Below are positions 52,368-62,649 of a DNA stretch of 64,000 nucleotides, piece by piece. This stretch comes from Plantactinospora sp. BC1 (lineage in GTDB: Bacteria > Actinomycetota > Actinomycetes > Mycobacteriales > Micromonosporaceae), in NCBI RefSeq assembly GCF_003030345.1, contig NZ_CP028158.1, positions 2,356,001 to 2,420,000 of the forward strand, written 5' to 3'. Under the pieces are notes generated by a model. That model was not told where the DNA came from and did not search any database. It saw nothing but the letters and a program-made list of their open reading frames with translations. Numbering within the stretch: position 1 is the stretch's first letter; each line of letters starts with the position of its first letter. A program made the position numbers and the translations under genes.

Positions 52368-53504
52368 TCACCGCTCATTCCCGGTGAGCGGAGCGCCGCG
52401 GTCGCGCATGAACGGCACCGGGTCGATGGCGCCGTGCCGGCTCCGGTCGCCGCGCAGGTGCACCTCGAAGTGCAGGTGCGGCCCCGAGGAGTTGCCGCTC
52501 GATCCGACCCGCCCGATCACCTGCCCGGCCTCCACCATGTCGTTCTTGGAAACCATCGGCCTGTTGACCATGTGGCAGTACCGGGTGATCACGTTGCCCG
52601 CGTGCAGGATGTCGACGAACCAGCCGCAGCCGCCCTTGCCCGGGAAGCCGTCCACGTCGCAGCTCAACCGCCCCCGCCGGTCCGGGTCGCAGCGGGAGAC
52701 CAGCACCCGGCCGGCCGCCGCCGCCCGGATCTCCGTGGTGTACTTCGGCGCGCCGATGTCGACCCCGTTGTGCGCCGGCCGGGCAGCGGTACGGAATCCG
52801 GAGCCGACCCCGCCGGGGATCGGGGCGGTCCAGCCCGAGGCGGCGATCTCCGCCCCGTCGGCGCAGCCGAGCCCCAGGTCGGTACCGGCGGCCCGGGCGG
52901 CCCCGCCGGTCAACGCGTTCACGATCTCGGTCGCCAGCGGCTCGTGCTTGGCGTACGCGTCCGGGAAGGCGCTGATCTGCACCGCCTGGGCGGCCCGGGT
53001 GAGCGACCGCTTCTGCCAGTTCCGGATGGTCTTCAACTTCTCGTAGAACTTCCGGGCCGCGTACTCCGGGTTGCGGATCTGCTCCGGCGTGCCCCAGCCG
53101 GTGCTGGGCCGCTGCTGGAACAGTCCGAGCGAGTCGTGGTCGTTGCGGTCGCCGAGATGCCCATGGTTGGTCAGGCCGGACTCCTGCATCGCGGTGGCGA
53201 CCGCGATCACCCAGGCCCGGGGCGGCAGCCCCATCTCCCGGCCAACCTTGATGATGATCGCCGCGTTCCGCATCTGACTCGCCTTGTACGGCCCGACCAG
53301 CGGCAGGTCGCCGTCGGTCTTGACCGGCTCGGTGTCGCCGCAGCCGAAGGTCGCCGCCGCCAGGTTCTCCTCCTCGGAGGCGAACATCGTCACCAGGAAC
53401 GCACCGGTGCCGCCGACGCAGCAGAGCAGCGCGAGTACGCCGGTCAGCACCACCGCCAGCGCGACCCGCCGTACCGGTCGCCGGGTCGGACCCCGGTCGG
53501 TCAT
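52368..53504 (-). CDS. Membrane-anchored lysozyme-like + M23 endopeptidase (VirB1-like)
   Basis: The 378-residue protein has one membrane helix (about 12-38), a transglycosylase-like domain (about 75-190; IAVATAMQESGLTNHGHLGD and SLGLFQQRPSTGWG) with the catalytic Glu in MQESG, and an M23 LytM domain (about 230-360; HNGVDIGAP with zinc ligands and SSGPHLHFEV). It would open peptidoglycan for a secretion apparatus. The start at 53504 has a GGGGAGGTGGG site. It is the last gene of the type IV secretion-like operon. Another frame over the same region is a shadow. Confidence 0.92.
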   Translation of the reverse strand: MTDRGPTRRPVRRVALAVVLTGVLALLCCVGGTGAFLVTMFASEEENLAAATFGCGDTEPVKTDGDLPLVGPYKASQMRNAAIIIKVGREMGLPPRAWVIAVATAMQESGLTNHGHLGDRNDHDSLGLFQQRPSTGWGTPEQIRNPEYAARKFYEKLKTIRNWQKRSLTRAAQAVQISAFPDAYAKHEPLATEIVNALTGGAARAAGTDLGLGCADGAEIAASGWTAPIPGGVGSGFRTAARPAHNGVDIGAPKYTTEIRAAAAGRVLVSRCDPDRRGRLSCDVDGFPGKGGCGWFVDILHAGNVITRYCHMVNRPMVSKNDMVEAGQVIGRVGSSGNSSGPHLHFEVHLRGDRSRHGAIDPVPFMRDRGAPLTGNER

Positions 53505-53529
53505 CCCGCACCCACCTCCCCGCGCCCGC

Positions 53530-54075
53530 TCAGCGCCGTTGCCAGTCCACCGTGTCCACCCGCCAACGCCCCTGCACCGCCACCAGGCCGAGCCGCAGTT
53601 CGCCGGAGTCCACCGGTACGACCACCTCGACCAGGCTGTCGTTCTGCGGTACGGCCAGCAGGTCCCCGGTGATCCGGTCCGCCGGCACGGTGGCCGGGTC
53701 GACCCCGGTCAACTGCTCGGCGAGATTGTCGGTGGCGAGCTGCCGCAGCCCCGCGTGCCACTCGTCGGCGGTGGTGTCCCGGTGGTCCAGCCAGGCGGTG
53801 GCGAAAGACCGGGCCACCTGTGCCGGCTCGGGCGCGCCGGGACTGGTCCGGGGCGACGGCTCCTCGGTCACGGTCAGCCCGTCGTCGCCGGCCTCCGGGT
53901 CGGTGATGCTGATCGGGCCGGGCGTACCGCCGACGAGTCCGGGCCGGTCGTCGCCGGGGCCGGCGATCAGCCGGGCCGCGCCGACGATCCCGACCACCAG
54001 CACGGCGATGACGATCGCGATCCCGAGCCGGGACCGGAGGAGCCGGGTGAAGAGGAACTCGACGGCGCGCCGCAT
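53530..54075 (-). CDS. VirB8/TcpC-like single-pass membrane protein
   Basis: The 181-residue protein has a short cytoplasmic head, one membrane helix (about 17-40), a Pro/Glu linker, and an NTF2-like external domain (about 80-180; VARSFATAWLDHRDTTADEW then VVPVDSGELRL and WRVDTVDW). This is the VirB8/TcpC layout of type IV machines. It lies 4 bases after the VirB6-like stop and 25 bases before the M23 gene. The homology is inferred from topology and context. Confidence 0.75.
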   Translation of the reverse strand: MRRAVEFLFTRLLRSRLGIAIVIAVLVVGIVGAARLIAGPGDDRPGLVGGTPGPISITDPEAGDDGLTVTEEPSPRTSPGAPEPAQVARSFATAWLDHRDTTADEWHAGLRQLATDNLAEQLTGVDPATVPADRITGDLLAVPQNDSLVEVVVPVDSGELRLGLVAVQGRWRVDTVDWQRR

Positions 54076-54079
54076 CCCG

Positions 54080-56032
54080 TCACCTCGCCTCGGAGCGGAT
54101 CCGGGGCGCCCGGGGGGCGGGCGTCGGGTCGGGGGCGGGCGCGGAGTCGGGCCGGTAGATCACGTAGGAGGGGTTCTCCACCGGTACGTCGGGCTCGGTC
54201 CACTCCGCCGGCCGGCGGCGGGACGGCCGGGCCCGGTCCGGGCGCGAGCCGGAGCCGCCACCCGGGGCCGCCGCCGGGGGAGAGTCGGGTGCCTCGGTAC
54301 CCCGCTCGGGGCTGCTCTCCGAGCGGCTGCCGGCCCCGGTCTGGGCCGGGTCCTCGTGCCGGGCCTCCGGGCGTACGTTGGTCTGCTGGATCACCACGCT
54401 GCGGTTCTTGACCCGGATGTCGGTGCGGTGGTCCGGGTCGTCGAGCTGGGACGCGGCCCGGACGTCCCGGAAGAACCGGCGGTGCCAGGAGCCGGCCGAG
54501 GCGATCACCTCGGTGCTGTCCTTGCCGCCGAGTTGGGTGATCCGGCGGTACGGCCGCAGCAGCAGCCAGCCCACCACGCCGCAGAGCCAGACCAGCACCA
54601 CCTGGAGCCAGCCGGGAATGGTGGAGGTGCTCATCACCAGGTCGACGGCGAAGAGATAGATCGCCGCACCGGTGCCGAAGATGGCGATGTTGAACACGGC
54701 GGCGACGACGGCGTTGCCCAGCCGGCGCAGCCCGGCGCTGGCCGGGCGGAGCAGCCCGACCGTGCCGAGCACCGGGGCGGCGATCACCGCCCACCGGAAG
54801 AGCAGGAAGCCGAGCAGCACCAGTACGGACGCGGTCAGGTCGAACATCGCGAAGAGGATCGCGGCCAGGATGGCGATCAGCCCGGCGCCGATCCGGTCCG
54901 AGTCGCGGGCGCCGCGCAGGTACTCGTACGCCTCCGGGTCCTCCCGCTGGATCTGCTGGGCGACCTTCATCCACTGTTCCTGCTTGGCGGAGACGGTGGT
55001 CTGCCGGGTGCCCGGGTTGGCGGCGATCCGGGCGGTCTCCTCCCAGGTGAACGCCTTGGCGTCGTAGAGCGCCCGGCCGTACTTGCGGGCCGTCTCGCTG
55101 TCCGAGGAGCCGAGCGCGCCGCGCAGCCAGTTGCGGTAGAGCATCGTCTCGGTCGCGGTGTCACTGGCCCGCAGCGCCGGTGGCCGGTTGTCCTTGCAGC
55201 CGGCCGGGTTGAGCGAGCCGCAGCGGTCGGCCGGGATGCTCTTGTCCCGGGGGCCGACCGCCTCGTGCACCACGTTCAGCGTGGTGACCAGGGTGCCGTC
55301 GGCGACGTTGGCGGACCGGACCGGCCAGGCGGCGATCGCGGTCACCGCGACCATCACCAGCACCGCCCAGCCGGCGGTGGTCATCGCGTTGCTCATGTCG
55401 GACTGCCGGGAGCGCCAGAGCAGGTAGACGCCGACGACGCAGAGGGTGATGATGCCGAAGACGCTGAAGACCCGCTCGTAGACCGCCTTGGTGGCCTGCT
55501 CGACCAGCGGGTCGGCCCAGTCCCACATGCTGCTCGGGTCCCAGGCCCGCTCGCGCAGCGCGTTCGAGGCGCCGATGATCGCGGCGGCGATCCGGATCTC
55601 GCCGTCCGCGATCTTGTTGAACACCTTGCTGCCCGGGTCGATCACGTCCGAGGCGCAGCCGCCGGAGTCGTCGTACGTCTCGTAGCTGTAGCCGGCGTTG
55701 CCGTACTCGGTGTACATCCCCTTCACGCCCGGCTTGCTGCTCGCCTCGGGACGGGTGGCGAACCAGCCGCCGAGCCCCTGGTCGGGCGCGCTCGGGGTGG
55801 GCGCCGTGACACAGTCCCGGATGTGCTGGCCGACGTTGGCGAGCCGGTCGACGCAGTCCCGGAAGTTCGCCTCCCACTCGGCGGTGGTGCAGAGCGCGAC
55901 CTTGGCCTGGCTCGGCACCGGCACGGCGGCGGAGGCCGGCGTGGCGCCGCCGATCACCGGCCAGACCAGGGTGGCGGTCGCCAGCACCCCGATCGCGAGC
56001 AGCAGGGCGGCGAGCCGGGCTCCGAACCTCAT
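54080..56032 (-). CDS. VirB6/TrbL-like polytopic membrane protein
   Basis: The 650-residue protein has a cleavable-looking N-terminal signal (about 1-38), an external region with five or more Cys, then about seven to eight membrane helices (about 165-460), including long helical loops, and a Pro/Arg-rich cytoplasmic tail (about 500-650). This fits the VirB6/TrbL class, the membrane channel core. The ATG at 56032 has GGAGG seven bases upstream; a TTG at 56038 overlapping the virB4 stop is less likely. The neighbour genes (VirB4, PrgI) support the call. Confidence 0.85.
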   Translation of the reverse strand: MRFGARLAALLLAIGVLATATLVWPVIGGATPASAAVPVPSQAKVALCTTAEWEANFRDCVDRLANVGQHIRDCVTAPTPSAPDQGLGGWFATRPEASSKPGVKGMYTEYGNAGYSYETYDDSGGCASDVIDPGSKVFNKIADGEIRIAAAIIGASNALRERAWDPSSMWDWADPLVEQATKAVYERVFSVFGIITLCVVGVYLLWRSRQSDMSNAMTTAGWAVLVMVAVTAIAAWPVRSANVADGTLVTTLNVVHEAVGPRDKSIPADRCGSLNPAGCKDNRPPALRASDTATETMLYRNWLRGALGSSDSETARKYGRALYDAKAFTWEETARIAANPGTRQTTVSAKQEQWMKVAQQIQREDPEAYEYLRGARDSDRIGAGLIAILAAILFAMFDLTASVLVLLGFLLFRWAVIAAPVLGTVGLLRPASAGLRRLGNAVVAAVFNIAIFGTGAAIYLFAVDLVMSTSTIPGWLQVVLVWLCGVVGWLLLRPYRRITQLGGKDSTEVIASAGSWHRRFFRDVRAASQLDDPDHRTDIRVKNRSVVIQQTNVRPEARHEDPAQTGAGSRSESSPERGTEAPDSPPAAAPGGGSGSRPDRARPSRRRPAEWTEPDVPVENPSYVIYRPDSAPAPDPTPAPRAPRIRSEAR

Positions 56033-56034
56033 GG

Positions 56035-59000
56035 TCAAGCCTCCAGGTCCGCGACGGGGGAGGGCAGGTTGGCCGGGGCGGCCTTCGCCGTGACCGGGGT
56101 GGTGTCCAGGTGGTCGAGCAGGCCGGGCACGTACGAGACGTCGACGCGTACCTTCTGCACCCGGCCGTCGACGTCACGCATCACGAACTCGCGGAAGCCG
56201 AGCCGGTCCGCCGAGGAGGCGTCCACGCTGGAGAGCGAGGCGAGGGTCGCCTCGTAGCCGTCGTTGACCGGTACCCGGAGCAGCCGCAGCGCCTCGGAGG
56301 CGATGTCGACGTCCTCGGCGATCCGGCCGACGAAGACGGTGGAGACGAGGTTCTGCACGTCGAGCCCGAGGATGTCCTTCGGGTTCTGCGAGGAGACCAG
56401 CGCGGCGAGGTTCCACTTCCGGGAGTCCCGGGCCAGCCGGACCAGGAACGACCGCCCCGAGCGCCAGCCCTCCATGAAGTGCGCCTCGTCCAGGCCGACC
56501 AGCTTGCGCGACGACATCGCGCCGCCGTAGCAGCGGCGTACCGCCAGCCGGTGCGCGGTGTGCAGCATCGGCAGCGCCAGCGCCTCCTCGGCCGACCAGT
56601 ACTCCCGCTCGATCTTCAGGTCCGGCAGCCGCAGCCCGGCCATGGTGATCACGGTCAGCGTGGCGTCGGCGCCGAGCAGCCCCTCCGGCGGGCGGCCGAA
56701 GAAGAGCAGCGCCAACGGCATCTCGGCGGTGTCCAGCAGCAGGTTGGCCAGCTCCCGGCCCTCGTCCTCCAGCCCGGCCAGGCAGGCCACCACGTCGTCC
56801 AGGGTGGAGGTCTCCTCGGCCGGTACCTGCCGGACCGCGTGCCGGAAGAGCGTCGCGGTGGACGCCTCCCGGGCCACCTGCGGCGGCACCAGCATCATGC
56901 AGATGTCCTGCACCAGCATCCGCCGCTCGGCGCGGGCGTTGGAGACGGCGATCTGGAACTCCCGGTCGCCCGCCGAGCCGGCGGCGAACTCGCTGCGCAG
57001 CGGGGTCGGGATCAGCGCGTACGGCGCCAGGGTGCCGTGCTCGGAGCCGGTCAGGTTCAGCACGCGTGAATACGGTCGCAGCTCCGGCATCGCGCAGAGC
57101 CGGGCCAGCGGGCCGGACGGGTCGAGCAGGGTCACCTGCACCCCCCGCCGGGCGGCCAGATAGCCGAGCGCGCCGAGCAGGGTCGACTTGCCACCGCCGG
57201 GCTCGGCGACGAAGACGGCGAGCCCGGAACGCTCGCGTACCTCCATCGGGAAGTGCAGGTCCAGGAAGACCGGCCGGCGGCAGGTGCCGGCGGTACGACC
57301 GATCAGGTCGCCGCGCCGGTCCCCGACCGTCGAGGCGGCCTGCGGCAGTGCGGCCGCCAGCAGGTTCACCGGCATCCGGCGCAGGTAGCCGGTGTTGGCG
57401 ATCGGTTCGCCGGGAATGAACTCCCGGGCCAGCCAGTCCTGGTTCTTCGGATGCTGGAGCGAGATCCGCAGCTCCCGGGAGTAGAGCTGGATCAGCCGCC
57501 GGGCCCGCTCCAGGCACTCCTCCCTGGTCCGCCCGCCGACCGCGATCCGGTGCCAGCCGTGCGCCCGGGCCGACTCCACCGGCAGCCCGGTGGTCATCTC
57601 GTCCCCGATCACCAGGGCCCGCTTGGCCAGCCGCTCCAGCTCCGGCGGGGCGTCGATGCCGTGCTCGGCGTAGTCGAGCTGCTGCGAGCGGATCATCCGC
57701 AGCCGGTGCTCCAGATTGCGGAACGAGTCGCCGGGACCGAGGATGTCGACCCGGGTGGAGAGCTCCATCGGCCAGGGCAGCCGCTCGTGGAAGTGCAGCC
57801 ACGGCTCGTGCCGCTCCGGGATCTCCAGCGGCTCCATCCGGCCCACCGCGAGTACCGCGACGTGCCGCTCCTCGCCGGTCATCCGGTTGACCAGCTTCAC
57901 CGTCGACCCGTACGGGGTGCGGTAGCGCTCCACCTGCTCGGTCAGGGCGAGCAGGTCGCCGCGCTCCCACCGGCCGTTGGTGACCGGCGAGAGCTGGCCG
58001 GGCGGGGCCATGCAGAGCGCCACGGAGCGGTACATCAGCCACTCCAGCTCCTCGGCGCTGACCTGCCGCCCCCGCATCCCGAACGCGCCGAGCACCTCGT
58101 CGAACTGCTCGACCGTCCGGCCCAGCTTGCGGCGCTCCCCGTCGGGGGTGCCCCGGCCGAAGGCCCGGAGGATCCGCTCGGCCAGCGAGTTGCCGAGCGA
58201 CCGGCGGGCGAAGGTGACCCCGAGATAGGTCTGCCCCTCGGCGTGGTTGACCGAGAGCAGGTGCCGCTGGGCGGCGACCAGGTGATCCGACCAGCTCGGC
58301 GCGCCGGAGACGGTGGCCAGCGGGTGCGGGGTGTGCTGGTCGATCGTCCGGGCCCACTCGTCGGCCGGGAACGGCCGGGTGGTCCGGCGCAGGTGCAACC
58401 GGAAGCCGGCCAGCCCGGCGTACTGCTCGGAGATGGCGGAGAGCAGCGCCTCCCGTTCGGCGTCCGGCCGGAACGCCCAGCGCACCTCCGGCAGCCAGTA
58501 CCAGGCGGTGACGGTGTTCGGGGTGAAGGTCAGGTGGCCGGCGATCTCGGTGATGGCCAGCTCGACGGCGGGATCCCGGTCGCCGAAGCGGAGCTTCGGT
58601 GCGCGTACCCGCTGGGGTTTGGTCAGCGGCTGCGGCCGGGTCGGCTTCGGCGTGCTCCGCCGCTGCTTCGGCGCGACCGGCGCGGTCTCCCGCTCCGGTC
58701 GCCGGCCGGGCCGCCGGTCCGGCTCGGCCGGGCGGCGGGTCGGCTGTTCGGCGGGCTCGCGGACGATCGGCAGCGCACCGGAGTGCTCGCCGCCGCGCTG
58801 CTGTGGCGCCGGGGTCGGCCGCCCGGGGTGTCCCTCGGCGGGAGCGGCGGGCAGGGCTCCGGCGCCGCCCGGCGCGGCTCGGGGGGCGGGTGCGTCGGCC
58901 GGCCATTCGACGGCCGGGCCGGGGTCGAGGCTGGCGGGTCCGACCGGGCGAACGGCGGCACCGGGGTCGGCGATGGTCTCGTCCTGCGCCGGCAGGGCGG

Positions 59001-59517
59001 GCTGGGCGGCCGGCGGAGCGTACCGGGCGGTGGGCTGCCCGGACGCGATCTCCCGCTGCCCGCCGCCACCCGCCGGGAGTTCGTCCGGCTCCCAGGCCGG
59101 CAGGCCGACGGCGGCCTCCGGTTCCTCGCCCCAGCGGCCCCGCGGATGCGGTGCGGGCGGGCGGGGCGCGGGGCGGGGTGCCGGCGCGGCGGGTGGGCTC
59201 GGCGGCGGCGCCGGCTGGACCGGGCCGGCACCGAAGAGGTCGAGGAAGGGCGAGTCGATGTCCGGGTGCTCGACCGGGGCCGGCGGGCGGGCCGGCGGCG
59301 CGGCGGGGGGTCGGGCCGGGCGGTTCCGGGCCGGTGGTTGCGGCGCCTGGAAGACCGCTACCGCACCGTGCCCGGTGTTGCTGAGCAGCGCGGCGTCGTA
59401 CTCGCTCTCCTCGGCCAGCTCAGACTGGTTGTAGCCGGAGGACTGCGTACCGTTACCAGCGTTCTCGGCCGGGCGACCTGCCGGGTGAGACGAGCCCGGC
59501 CGGGAGGGGCGGGTCAT
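56035..59517 (-). CDS. VirB4-type ATPase with a long proline-rich N-terminal extension
   Basis: The 1160-residue protein has a Pro/Ala-rich disordered head (about 1-310), then a VirB4/TraE-like body: FVAEPGGGKSTLLGAL Walker A (K about 777) and LVGLDEAHFMEGW Walker B (about 1010), plus the SRKWNLAALVSSQNPKDILG motif. VirB4 drives assembly and substrate movement in type IV systems. Its ATG overlaps the stop of a 23-codon ORF (ATGA). The long N-terminal head is unusual for VirB4 and may dock partners. Confidence 0.92.
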   Translation of the reverse strand: MTRPSRPGSSHPAGRPAENAGNGTQSSGYNQSELAEESEYDAALLSNTGHGAVAVFQAPQPPARNRPARPPAAPPARPPAPVEHPDIDSPFLDLFGAGPVQPAPPPSPPAAPAPRPAPRPPAPHPRGRWGEEPEAAVGLPAWEPDELPAGGGGQREIASGQPTARYAPPAAQPALPAQDETIADPGAAVRPVGPASLDPGPAVEWPADAPAPRAAPGGAGALPAAPAEGHPGRPTPAPQQRGGEHSGALPIVREPAEQPTRRPAEPDRRPGRRPERETAPVAPKQRRSTPKPTRPQPLTKPQRVRAPKLRFGDRDPAVELAITEIAGHLTFTPNTVTAWYWLPEVRWAFRPDAEREALLSAISEQYAGLAGFRLHLRRTTRPFPADEWARTIDQHTPHPLATVSGAPSWSDHLVAAQRHLLSVNHAEGQTYLGVTFARRSLGNSLAERILRAFGRGTPDGERRKLGRTVEQFDEVLGAFGMRGRQVSAEELEWLMYRSVALCMAPPGQLSPVTNGRWERGDLLALTEQVERYRTPYGSTVKLVNRMTGEERHVAVLAVGRMEPLEIPERHEPWLHFHERLPWPMELSTRVDILGPGDSFRNLEHRLRMIRSQQLDYAEHGIDAPPELERLAKRALVIGDEMTTGLPVESARAHGWHRIAVGGRTREECLERARRLIQLYSRELRISLQHPKNQDWLAREFIPGEPIANTGYLRRMPVNLLAAALPQAASTVGDRRGDLIGRTAGTCRRPVFLDLHFPMEVRERSGLAVFVAEPGGGKSTLLGALGYLAARRGVQVTLLDPSGPLARLCAMPELRPYSRVLNLTGSEHGTLAPYALIPTPLRSEFAAGSAGDREFQIAVSNARAERRMLVQDICMMLVPPQVAREASTATLFRHAVRQVPAEETSTLDDVVACLAGLEDEGRELANLLLDTAEMPLALLFFGRPPEGLLGADATLTVITMAGLRLPDLKIEREYWSAEEALALPMLHTAHRLAVRRCYGGAMSSRKLVGLDEAHFMEGWRSGRSFLVRLARDSRKWNLAALVSSQNPKDILGLDVQNLVSTVFVGRIAEDVDIASEALRLLRVPVNDGYEATLASLSSVDASSADRLGFREFVMRDVDGRVQKVRVDVSYVPGLLDHLDTTPVTAKAAPANLPSPVADLEA

Positions 59518-59585
59518 GCCGCCGCCTCGCCCGGCCCGGAGGGCTCCACCGTCCAGCGGCAGAGGAATCTGGTTCGCTCGGTCAC
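59514..59585 (-). CDS. 23-codon micro-ORF coupled upstream of virB4
   Basis: GTG at 59585 overlaps the TGA of the 9-codon ORF (GTGA), and its own TGA overlaps the virB4 ATG (ATGA). It reads MTERTRFLCRWTVEPSGPGE and two or three more residues. A GAGG site lies six to seven bases before the GTG. It may be a real micropeptide or a relay that carries ribosomes from prgI into virB4, whose own site is weak. Confidence 0.55.
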   Translation of the reverse strand: MTERTRFLCRWTVEPSGPGEAAA

Positions 59586-59611
59586 GCCGTCACCTCGCTG
59601 CGGTCGGTCAT
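59582..59611 (-). CDS. 9-codon micro-ORF coupled to prgI
   Basis: ATG at 59611 overlaps the PrgI stop (ATGA); it reads MTDRSEVTA then TGA at 59584-59582, which overlaps the next GTG. It contains the ribosome-binding site for the following micro-ORF. It is probably a translational relay. Confidence 0.45.
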   Translation of the reverse strand: MTDRSEVTA

Positions 59612-59970
59612 GTCAACTGCTCCCGGATCCGGATACGGGTCGCGACCAGGCGGGGGTCGCGCTGCTCTGTCGCCGGTTCGCGGGTGCGCCGCCAGTCGGT
59701 CAGTGCCGTCCGGATGACCATCCGGGCGGGCCGGTCGGGGTCGACGTACCGGAATACGAACGAGGTGGTGACGATCGCGAGCGCGATCTCCCAGGCGGGG
59801 ATCAGCTCGACCTTGAGCGTGAAGAGGTAATGAATGAACATGAAGAGCGGCACCAGCAACATGAACAGCCCGTACTGCGTGTAAGGCAGGTGGACGGGCA
59901 GTGTGTAGCCGGGCGGCCCCAGGTAGACCAGGCGGGCCCGATAGATGTCGTCGTCGGTGCGCAGCCGCAT
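59608..59970 (-). CDS. PrgI/VirB3-like small membrane protein
   Basis: The 120-residue protein opens MRLRTDDDIYRARLVYLG and has two membrane helices (about 30-50 and 58-75), then an Arg-rich cytoplasmic tail. The DPDRPARMVIRTALTDWRRT stretch is typical for PrgI proteins that sit directly before VirB4 in Gram-positive type IV clusters. The ATG at 59970 has GGAG. It is 15 bases after the pilin-like gene and overlaps the micro-ORF chain. Confidence 0.82.
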   Translation of the reverse strand: MRLRTDDDIYRARLVYLGPPGYTLPVHLPYTQYGLFMLLVPLFMFIHYLFTLKVELIPAWEIALAIVTTSFVFRYVDPDRPARMVIRTALTDWRRTREPATEQRDPRLVATRIRIREQLT

Positions 59971-59985
59971 CTCGTGCTCCGCGGT

Positions 59986-60297
59986 CTATTCGAAGATCAG
60001 GTTGATCAGGTTCTCGCCGACGAAGAACAGCGTCGCCGCCCCGGCGATGAAGGCCAGGCCGAGCAGTGCGATCGCCGAGCTGGTCAGCACCTTGGAGACC
60101 TCGCCCTTGCTGGCCCGACCGATGAAGATCACGCCGAGTACGGCGAGCAGGATGGGCGCGATGTTGGTGGCGAAGAAGCCGACGATCCCGTCGGTGTCGA
60201 TATTGCCCTCGGGCTCGGCCGCCGTCACGAACGCGAGGGTGTGGAGCGCGTGCGTGGCAGCCGGCCATGCCGTCTCCACCAGCTCCATGGCGAACAT
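59986..60297 (-). CDS. VirB2/TrbC-like pilin-type small membrane protein
   Basis: The 103-residue product starts at ATG 60297 behind GGGGAGG and has an N-terminal segment that may be a signal peptide (about 1-25), then two hydrophobic helices (about 42-60 and 72-100) separated by GRASKGEVSK. This is the shape of VirB2/TrbC subunits. It is the first gene of the type IV secretion-like operon, which is consistent with a pilin. Similarity in sequence was not tested. Confidence 0.72.
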   Translation of the reverse strand: MFAMELVETAWPAATHALHTLAFVTAAEPEGNIDTDGIVGFFATNIAPILLAVLGVIFIGRASKGEVSKVLTSSAIALLGLAFIAGAATLFFVGENLINLIFE

Positions 60298-60700
60298 CGG
60301 AATCCTCCCCGGTGCGGTGACGCCCCGCCTCCGCACTGCTGTCAAGCCCGGTCAACCGGGTCGGTCGTGGGGTGTTGATCGACCCTGCGTCTCGCAATCA
60401 CCGCAAAGGGTGATGGTTTGTGGGCATCTTTGTCCTGATTCGGCCCATCTCTTAAGTTCTGGCATCTGGCTGATGCGAGCGTACGGCGCGTGCCTGTTTG
60501 GAACAAGCGGCCCGGAGTGCCACCGATCGCTCCTCCCCGGCCGGTTTTCACGCGCCTCGCCGACGCCGGGCCCGCCACCGGTACCGCACCGATCCCGGGG
60601 CGGGGCGGGCCGCGCCCGGCCGGCAGGACCACCGGCGGGACCACCGGCGGGACCCGGGGGCGACCGGGCCCGGAGTCGGGCAGGTGGGTAGCGTCGAGTC
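60298..60700. promoter_or_regulatory. Divergent region between the secretion-like operon and folP
   Basis: 403 bases with no gene. A perfect CCCGGT-CA-ACCGGG palindrome lies at 60347-60360, and an ATCACC/GGTGAT inverted repeat at 60397-60402 and 60409-60414. Either could control the minus-strand operon. The folP -10 is at 60689-60694. GC content is lower than in neighbouring genes in 60370-60480. Confidence 0.5.
60689..60700 (+). promoter_or_regulatory. -10 element of a probable leaderless promoter for folP
   Basis: TAGCGT at 60689-60694 ends six bases before the GTG at 60701. No ribosome-binding site. Confidence 0.55.
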
Positions 60701-61609: not shown

Positions 61610-62028
61610 CCGGGCCGGCGGGCGACCGGGGTCGACCGGGGGACGGGTCCACCGGGCTTCCCGGGCCGGGCACCGACCGGATCGTGCTGACCGGGTTGCG
61701 GGCGCGCGGGCGGCACGGCGTCTACGACTTCGAGCGGGCCCAGGGGCAGGACTTCGTCGTCGACGTCGTGCTGGAACTCGACCTGACGATGGCGGGCCGC
61801 TCCGACGACGTGGCCGACACCGTGCACTACGGCGAACTCGCCGGCCGGCTGGTCGCGATCGTGACCGGCGAGCCGGTCAACCTGATCGAGACGCTCGCCG
61901 AGCGGCTCGCCGCCGCCTGTCTCGCCGATCCACGGGTACTGGTCACCTCGGTCACCGTGCACAAGCCGCAGGCGCCGATCCCGCACGACTTCGCCGACGT
62001 GGCGGTCACCGTGACCCGGCGGAGGTGA
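61606..62028 (+). CDS. folB: Dihydroneopterin aldolase
   Basis: ATG at 61606 overlaps the folP stop (ATGA). The 140-residue protein has a Gly/Pro-rich head of about 24 residues, then the FolB fold: VLTGLRARGRHGVYDFERAQ, DVVLELDL, the DTVHYGELAG and LIETLAERLA motifs with the active Glu, and VTVHKPQAPIPH. It converts dihydroneopterin to hydroxymethyl-dihydropterin plus glycolaldehyde. It precedes folK by one base. Confidence 0.95.
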   Translation: MTGPAGDRGRPGDGSTGLPGPGTDRIVLTGLRARGRHGVYDFERAQGQDFVVDVVLELDLTMAGRSDDVADTVHYGELAGRLVAIVTGEPVNLIETLAERLAAACLADPRVLVTSVTVHKPQAPIPHDFADVAVTVTRRR

Positions 62029-62029
62029 G

Positions 62030-62554
62030 ATGACCCGGGCCGTGCTCTCGCTCGGCAGCAACCTCGGTGACCGGCTCGGACACCTGCGCACGGCGGTCGA
62101 CGAGCTGCGGGACGTACTCCTGGTGGCCTCCGGGGTCTACGAGACGCCGCCGTGGGGGGATCCGGACCAGCCGGCGTACCTGAACGCCGTCCTGCTGGTC
62201 GCGGACGACGCGGCCGGGCCGGGCGACTGGCTCGACCGGGCCCGGGCCGCCGAGGCGGCGGCCGGCCGGGTCCGCGACCCGCGGCGCCGCTTCGGCCCGC
62301 GCACCCTCGACGTGGACGTGGTCGCGGTCTGGTCGGCCGACGGCGAGCCGGTGCGCAGCGCCGACCCCGAGCTGACCCTGCCGCACCCCCGGGCCCACCT
62401 GCGGGCGTTCGTGCTCCGGCCGTGGATCGACATCGACCCGTACGGGCGGCTGCCCGGCCACGGCTGGCTGACCGACCTGATGTCGACCGAGCCGGTCGCC
62501 ACCGACGTGCTGGACGTGCGCCCCCGTCCAGATCTGCGGATAGAGTCGGATTGA
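62030..62554 (+). CDS. folK: 6-hydroxymethyl-dihydropterin pyrophosphokinase
   Basis: The 174-residue enzyme has VLSLGSNLGDR, the AYLNAVLLV strand, RRRFGPRTLDVDVV (ATP/metal loop), and LPHPRAHLRAFVLRPW. It phosphorylates the pterin for FolP. It starts one base after the folB stop. Spacing and order are the standard fol cluster. Confidence 0.96.
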   Translation: MTRAVLSLGSNLGDRLGHLRTAVDELRDVLLVASGVYETPPWGDPDQPAYLNAVLLVADDAAGPGDWLDRARAAEAAAGRVRDPRRRFGPRTLDVDVVAVWSADGEPVRSADPELTLPHPRAHLRAFVLRPWIDIDPYGRLPGHGWLTDLMSTEPVATDVLDVRPRPDLRIESD

Positions 62555-62649
62555 CGGCGACCGCGGCGCGGACCGGACGAGCCAGCAGCACGACCCGGTT
62601 CCGGGCGGTCCGTGGGAAGCGGTGCCGACGAGCGGAGTGAGGAAGAGTT

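Follow-up and report, generated by a model that had tools for sequence, protein, structure and literature searches.

Frame-conserving micro-ORFs between a prgI-like gene and virB4 in Micromonosporaceae: candidate translational relays

Anatomy of the prgI–virB4 junction

The window analysed here, a 64,000-nucleotide stretch of the 8.33 Mb genome of Plantactinospora sp. BC1 (contig NZ_CP028158.1, positions 2,356,001 to 2,420,000), carries on its minus strand a gene for a prgI-like small protein followed by a gene for a VirB4-type ATPase. Between them lie two micro-open reading frames (micro-ORFs) of 9 and 23 codons, and at 59514–59611 the prgI-like gene, the two micro-ORFs and virB4 tile the DNA with zero bases unused. 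Comparison with other Micromonosporaceae shows that the frame and the overlaps of this chain are kept while its peptides drift, and we consider it quite probable that the two micro-ORFs are translational relay ORFs. The features of the locus, including Shine–Dalgarno (SD)-like sites, are as follows.

59986–60345, minus strand: small ORF upstream of prgI, from an ORF call, termed pilin by position only
59971–59985, minus strand: gap between the pilin and prgI ORFs, used as control region
59608–59970, minus strand: prgI-like small protein gene (VirB3-like by position), 120 residues, upstream member of the chain, with homologues in the family
59608–59611, minus strand: first overlap, ATGA, prgI stop and micro-ORF 1 start, read from the sequence
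59582–59611, minus strand: micro-ORF 1, MTDRSEVTA, 9 codons, within which lies GAGGTGA, the SD-like site for micro-ORF 2 (-12.1 kcal/mol)
59582–59585, minus strand: second overlap, GTGA, micro-ORF 1 stop and micro-ORF 2 start, read from the sequence
59514–59585, minus strand: micro-ORF 2, VTERTRFLCRWTVEPSGPGEAAA, 23 codons, its 3' end holding the virB4 SD-like site (-8.6 kcal/mol)
59514–59517, minus strand: third overlap, ATGA, micro-ORF 2 stop and virB4 start, read from the sequence
56035–59517, minus strand: VirB4-type ATPase gene, 1160 residues, downstream member of the chain (PF12846, AAA_10, E 1.6e-19)

The prgI-like ORF ends in TTG ACA TGA, and its stop shares four nucleotides with the ATG at 59611 that opens micro-ORF 1. 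The TGA of micro-ORF 1 in turn shares four nucleotides with the GTG of micro-ORF 2, and the TGA of micro-ORF 2, whose product contains one Cys and one Trp, shares four nucleotides with the virB4 ATG at 59517. Re-reading the sequence thus bore out the anatomy given in an initial annotation of this DNA (three 4-base overlaps, ORFs of 9 and 23 codons, one Cys and one Trp). The virB4 frame has a TGA at 59592–59590, and no ATG, GTG or TTG occurs in it between this TGA and 59517.

The initial annotation also judged such a chain unlikely by chance, a claim that fails on the window sequence alone. When the length and both end ATGAs were fixed, 36610 of 200000 dinucleotide shuffles (18%) produced a two-link chain as well, so that the window sequence by itself proves little. 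Strong support for a chain that did not arise by chance comes from the relatives instead.

Junctions across the Micromonosporaceae

Homologues of the prgI-like gene were found at E ≤ 1e-10 in 345 of 354 Micromonosporaceae genomes (42 of 44 genera) and in none of 59 genomes drawn from the class outside the family at E ≤ 1e-3, which confines the outgroup comparison to the family. We read 262 junction loci, 202 of which are distinct, from 178 of the 345 genomes taken by handle (30 + 30 + 58 + 60) plus 80 named loci that partly repeat them. Left out were L002 (prgI absent) and, ahead of the distinct counts, four further rows: L003 (a copy of L001), L192 (split prgI match) and L193 and L194 (paralogues, 47–51%). 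One or two micro-ORFs are present in 149 of the 202 distinct junctions, 51 have a direct prgI/virB4 overlap (41 ATGA, 10 GTGA) and two, L147 and L183, have a short gap. In all 149 micro-ORF junctions an unbroken chain connects the stop of prgI with the start of virB4, with 4-nucleotide overlaps at every link in 148 of them and TGATG at the virB4 link of the last, L089. Single micro-ORFs occur in 29 lengths from 9 to 59 codons. Among the junctions read, two-link chains occur only in the genus of the window, where they occupy all seven distinct junctions with GTGA (four) or ATGA (three) as the second overlap; the nearest named relatives, Plantactinospora mayteni and P. endophytica, have prgI products 98 and 97% identical to that of the window. 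Among the first 201 loci, VirB4 homology was reachable for 119 of those with a micro-ORF, 115 of which have a chain that ends in the VirB4 frame.

The trees show one main origin of the micro-ORF within the family. On a 172-tip tree it was gained once, in a clade where all 119 tips carry it (support 0.94), and separately in L180, and on a 202-tip tree its presence changes three times, the third case being L211. This junction (genome G286, grouped with Micromonospora) had been a candidate for a clean loss of the micro-ORF, which was dropped because prgI reads through in the frame of the micro-ORF and terminates at the same overlap with virB4; being found in a single genome, the fusion is possibly a sequencing error. 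Junctions with a micro-ORF and those lacking one have similar-looking VirB4 N-termini, which makes insertion of DNA at an ancestral direct stop/start overlap the most likely origin of the micro-ORFs, as judged from the sequences.

We compared the length changes of the micro-ORF region with those of the pilin–prgI gap. The comparison used a clade of 149 tips, comprising 148 micro-ORF junctions plus L211, while L180, though one of the 149 micro-ORF junctions, lies outside these counts. By parsimony, the relay region underwent at least 44 length changes but only two changes of frame class, whereas the control gap underwent 39 and 33, with some odd gap values (-20, 33, 38 and 44) that may be miscalls, as the gap was taken from mechanical ORF calls. 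The difference in class changes gives a Fisher p of 1.2e-14, and the probability of at most two class changes in 44 at a rate of 2/3 is 3.9e-18, both values counting parsimony changes as independent. An earlier 119-tip tree gave 39 length changes and one class change for the relay region versus 32 and 27 for the control gap. Independently of any tree, all 141 single micro-ORF tips fall into one class, because the chain is unbroken in them, while the control gap divides 70, 30 and 19 of 119 across the three. The chain survives both class changes, one through the second overlap in the genus of the window and the other through the prgI/micro-ORF fusion in L211. The bodies of 112 single micro-ORFs contain no stops in the relay frame and 11 and 60 in the other two frames (prgI TGA excluded). 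Chance tiling in GC-rich DNA, which could appeal to the shuffled windows above, is highly improbable against 149 unbroken junctions and this scarcity of class changes.

The peptides behave differently from the frame. Across 47 aligned 18-codon micro-ORFs, substitutions at codon positions 1:2:3 number 41:38:37 (11:12:11 sites), compared with 56:20:236 over the final 100 prgI codons (100 sites each). The 13-codon (18:15:19) and 16-codon (21:14:20) sets agree with the 18-codon set; the 25-codon set shows 4:8:7, from seven tips with few changes. No codon-level constraint on the peptide was detected in the 18-, 13- and 16-codon sets, and the even distribution of substitutions indicates that the peptide looks unconstrained. 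On a tree built from prgI and pilin DNA, the micro-ORF body accumulated 116 changes over 34 sites, at or above the rate at prgI third positions (236 over 100), while the tail with the virB4 SD-like site changed less (22 over 15 sites). The guanine-plus-cytosine content at the three codon positions of the micro-ORFs (0.61, 0.71 and 0.80) is ambiguous and was set aside as evidence.

These data bear on whether one or both micro-ORFs encode a functional peptide, such as a subunit or a leader peptide. The initial annotation had left a relay, which may set the PrgI:VirB4 ratio, and a subunit side by side, and had proposed that a comparison of related genomes would separate them by codon-level constraint. 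The comparison supports the relay, with frame and overlaps kept in every distinct micro-ORF junction and the peptide unconstrained, and speaks against the subunit. A conserved frame would suit a functional peptide too, as would the recurrence within Micromonospora of an MTG start and a G(E/R)A(V/I)A end, and the presence of MTDRSEVTA or MTERGEVTA as micro-ORF 1 in six of the seven distinct junctions of the genus of the window. However, the substitutions are even across codon positions, the lengths range from 9 to 59 codons, the peptides are dissimilar between genera, and the Cys and the Trp singled out in the 23-residue product recur in the last micro-ORF of just 48 and 14 of the 149 junctions, respectively. 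Moreover, the SD-like site of virB4 falls on the conserved 3' end, and that of micro-ORF 2 lies within micro-ORF 1. We therefore give a peptide function very little credence.

As a separate observation, the virB4 frame is shorter than 400 codons at five loci, four of which are out of frame (L013 and L042 in one genome, L025 and L051 in another) and one in frame (L115). It is also out of frame in L140, one of 13 direct-type loci checked. These losses of frame in three genomes fall in the variable N-terminal part and are either assembly errors or real.

Proposed ribosome hand-over and its alternatives

The initiation signals at the links were compared with random sites by medians and fractions, since the mean at random prgI sites is distorted by failed duplexes. 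In the window, the SD-like energies before micro-ORF 1, micro-ORF 2 and virB4 are -7.1, -12.1 and -8.6 kcal/mol. The corresponding medians are -10.8 kcal/mol for the first micro-ORF (n = 119), -12.1 kcal/mol for the second (n = 7) and -8.7 kcal/mol for virB4 (n = 119), compared with -2.9 and -3.2 kcal/mol at random sites. An energy of -6 kcal/mol or better was found in 100%, 100% and 97% of these starts versus 19% and 20% of the random sites.

A conserved frame with a drifting peptide suggests that the micro-ORFs pass ribosomes from gene to gene and make no product. In the proposed mechanism, ribosomes ending prgI would restart at the overlapping ATG and read the nine codons of micro-ORF 1, restart at the overlapping GTG upon its stop to read the 23 codons of micro-ORF 2, and finally restart at the overlapping virB4 ATG. 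The micro-ORFs are thus presumed to be translated, and virB4 translation would stay tied to prgI despite the approximately 90 nucleotides that separate genes overlapping directly in other genera. Selection would keep the frame open and preserve the overlaps and ribosome-binding sites, while the peptides would be invisible to it. We infer that the benefit is the hand-over itself, by reinitiation or by local unfolding, both of which are discussed as coupling mechanisms in the available text of PMC12548453. The junction data do not tell these two apart, the structure tests being flat. Paired synthesis may also aid assembly: the literature regards PrgI as homologous to VirB3 and describes VirB3 as the membrane anchor of VirB4 (PMC12102498, available text), which is likely a reason for tying their synthesis if the prgI-like protein is PrgI/VirB3.

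A different account of the same frames is that translation of the gap protects the RNA against decay or Rho-dependent termination, or melts structure at the virB4 ribosome-binding site, with virB4 using fresh ribosomes at its own SD. It likewise demands open frames and insertions or deletions in multiples of three, it agrees with the SD-like site before the virB4 start, and the folding energy of the region, -84.4 kcal/mol over 181 nucleotides, is strong in absolute terms. It does not, however, need an exact overlap at the virB4 end, yet 148 of 149 junctions have four nucleotides there and the last has TGATG, and the structure does not exceed that of shuffles. We hold this account to be unlikely, and RNA structure as the cause was dropped, as neither fold nor accessibility showed an excess over shuffles. 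Programmed frameshifting at the overlaps, yielding PrgI–micro–VirB4 fusions, would also keep the frames open, and L211 has a genomic prgI–micro-ORF fusion. On the other hand, inspection by eye revealed no slippery heptamer at the three overlaps of the window, start codons are retained at each link and SD-like sites at most, which makes frameshifting scarcely plausible.

Several observations weigh against a translational relay or weaken its support. With an SD-like site of its own, the virB4 start could recruit ribosomes unaided. The junction fold is nothing special compared with shuffles (z-score 0.02), and accessibility is 0.41 versus 0.38 in shuffles (60 of 119 junctions sampled). Of the 202 distinct junctions, 51 have a direct overlap and lack a micro-ORF altogether, so that the relay is neither essential nor required for coupling as such. 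In four of the 119 loci with reachable VirB4 homology (two genomes), virB4 is out of frame past its start, and the remaining micro-ORF loci were assessed by the appearance of the VirB4 N-terminus. Stop-freeness is modest evidence by itself (product over 27 lengths, 10^-4.9). The class counts were obtained by parsimony on trees that contain weak nodes (support for the clade is 0.94 on the 172-tip and 0.70 on the 202-tip tree). Since the trees were built from the very DNA of pilin and prgI, the numbers of changes counted elsewhere may be inflated, and the junction sample is non-random, consisting of best matches and chosen genera.

If the two micro-ORFs are relay ORFs, the junction separates two things that are usually joined, reading-frame selection and protein selection, and it warns that a conserved frame with indels in multiples of three is by itself no proof of a functional small protein. 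The 29 natural lengths, with the direct-overlap relatives as controls, offer a test bed for ribosome hand-over versus RNA unfolding. More tentatively, stop/start overlaps in actinobacterial operons might be tolerant insertion sites, at which any DNA that stays open between overlaps is kept as a productless gene selected for frame only. The prgI–virB4 locus would then be one of many, two-link chains would represent a frame break by an indel rescued by a second overlap, and relay ORFs would form a class findable genome-wide by frame-only selection. We regard this generalization as possible but doubtful.

Genomic context and known systems

The name prgI is a positional label, based on size, on hydrophobic stretches seen by eye and on the place before a VirB4-type ATPase. 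No family matched the product in Pfam at E ≤ 10 or in NCBIfam at E ≤ 1, so the label given in the initial annotation has no profile support and membership of the PrgI/VirB3 family was not indicated by a profile match. The virB4 product also matches the TcpF model with an E of 3.5e-16, though at 58 bits compared with a cut-off of 1100. Besides this ATPase, the neighbours of the junction are an ORF of 652 residues for which Pfam gave no match at 0.001 and a protein that carries an M23 peptidase domain together with an SLT_3 match below threshold, an order reminiscent of Gram-positive conjugation systems. With prgI, the only gene searched, in 345 of 354 family genomes, the conjugation-like cluster at 52368–60345 appears to be a stable part of the chromosome and not a mobile element of sporadic occurrence.

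The window was also scanned for other relays. A strict filter missed the prgI–virB4 relay, and a looser one found it along with two doubtful cases, from which no claim of frequency is made. At 62025–62033 (plus strand), a two-codon ORF (GTG AGG TAA) chains two genes, which we take to be folB and folK, through GTGA and TAATG overlaps, and may reflect chance or a misplaced start. At 62551–62640 (plus strand), a 29-codon ORF is linked by overlaps, probably by chance, to a frame downstream whose composition is not coding-like.

The closest known systems include mycobacterial interspersed repetitive units (MIRUs), which have been characterized as ORFs with coupling at -4 nucleotide spacing (available text of PMC12548453) and as dispersed repeats with many copies per genome (available texts of PMC12548453 and PMC2734929). 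Like them, the micro-ORFs are joined to the neighbouring gene by a -4 nucleotide overlap and likely originated by insertion at a stop/start overlap. Unlike a dispersed repeat, those of the window are not present in many copies. The 98 bases of the window junction gave one full-length match in their own genome, to themselves, and 34 others of at most 42 bases at E ≤ 1 (40 of 221 candidates scored), and a 501-bp query gave itself and one 37-bp match outside the micro-ORFs (40 of 387 candidates scored). A 59-codon micro-ORF of Phytohabitans suffuscus (L042, 3360–3535) does contain a dispersed repeat, with at least 14 matches in its own genome including itself and at least 31 in a relative (40 candidates scored each); its chain is unbroken, though virB4 leaves the frame soon past the start. 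L042 is so far the only long variant with such a repeat and the only one tested.

The available text of PMC12548453 also mentions short upstream ORFs with the sole role of ribosome delivery, and small ORFs in intergenic regions of enterobacteria are reported to share 1–4 nucleotides with the following gene (PMC11188072, available text). The 4-nucleotide stop/start overlaps and SD-like sites of the junction are those of termination–reinitiation systems as portrayed in PMC12548453. Such systems usually comprise one overlap between two real genes, whereas here the chain runs through ORFs without evident product.

Also among the closest parallels are the RTGA-coupled small ORFs of mycobacteria, in which the TGA overlaps the RTG of the next gene. 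Their linkage is reported to be conserved and their peptide not, and they were proposed to deliver ribosomes whatever peptide they encode (available text of PMC4633059). That source thus already documents for mycobacteria that ribosomes can be delivered by a short ORF and that linkage can persist longer than peptide sequence. Among titles and abstract openings of the open-licence literature, we found no description of an internal relay, at times of two links, for which selection on the frame alone was counted across many species. The micro-ORFs of the window, at 9 and 23 codons and ending in GTGA and ATGA, fall within the 5–50 codons given for RTGA ORFs, while relatives reach 59, and at the prgI–virB4 junction, too, the linkage is under stronger selection than the peptide. 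RTGA ORFs, as the available account has it, stand first on leaderless transcripts, whereas micro-ORF 1 begins inside the prgI stop codon. In place of the two-species example given there, the ORF described here lies between two genes, overlaps both, sometimes occurs as two in a row and has its frame-only conservation counted in 149 distinct junctions.
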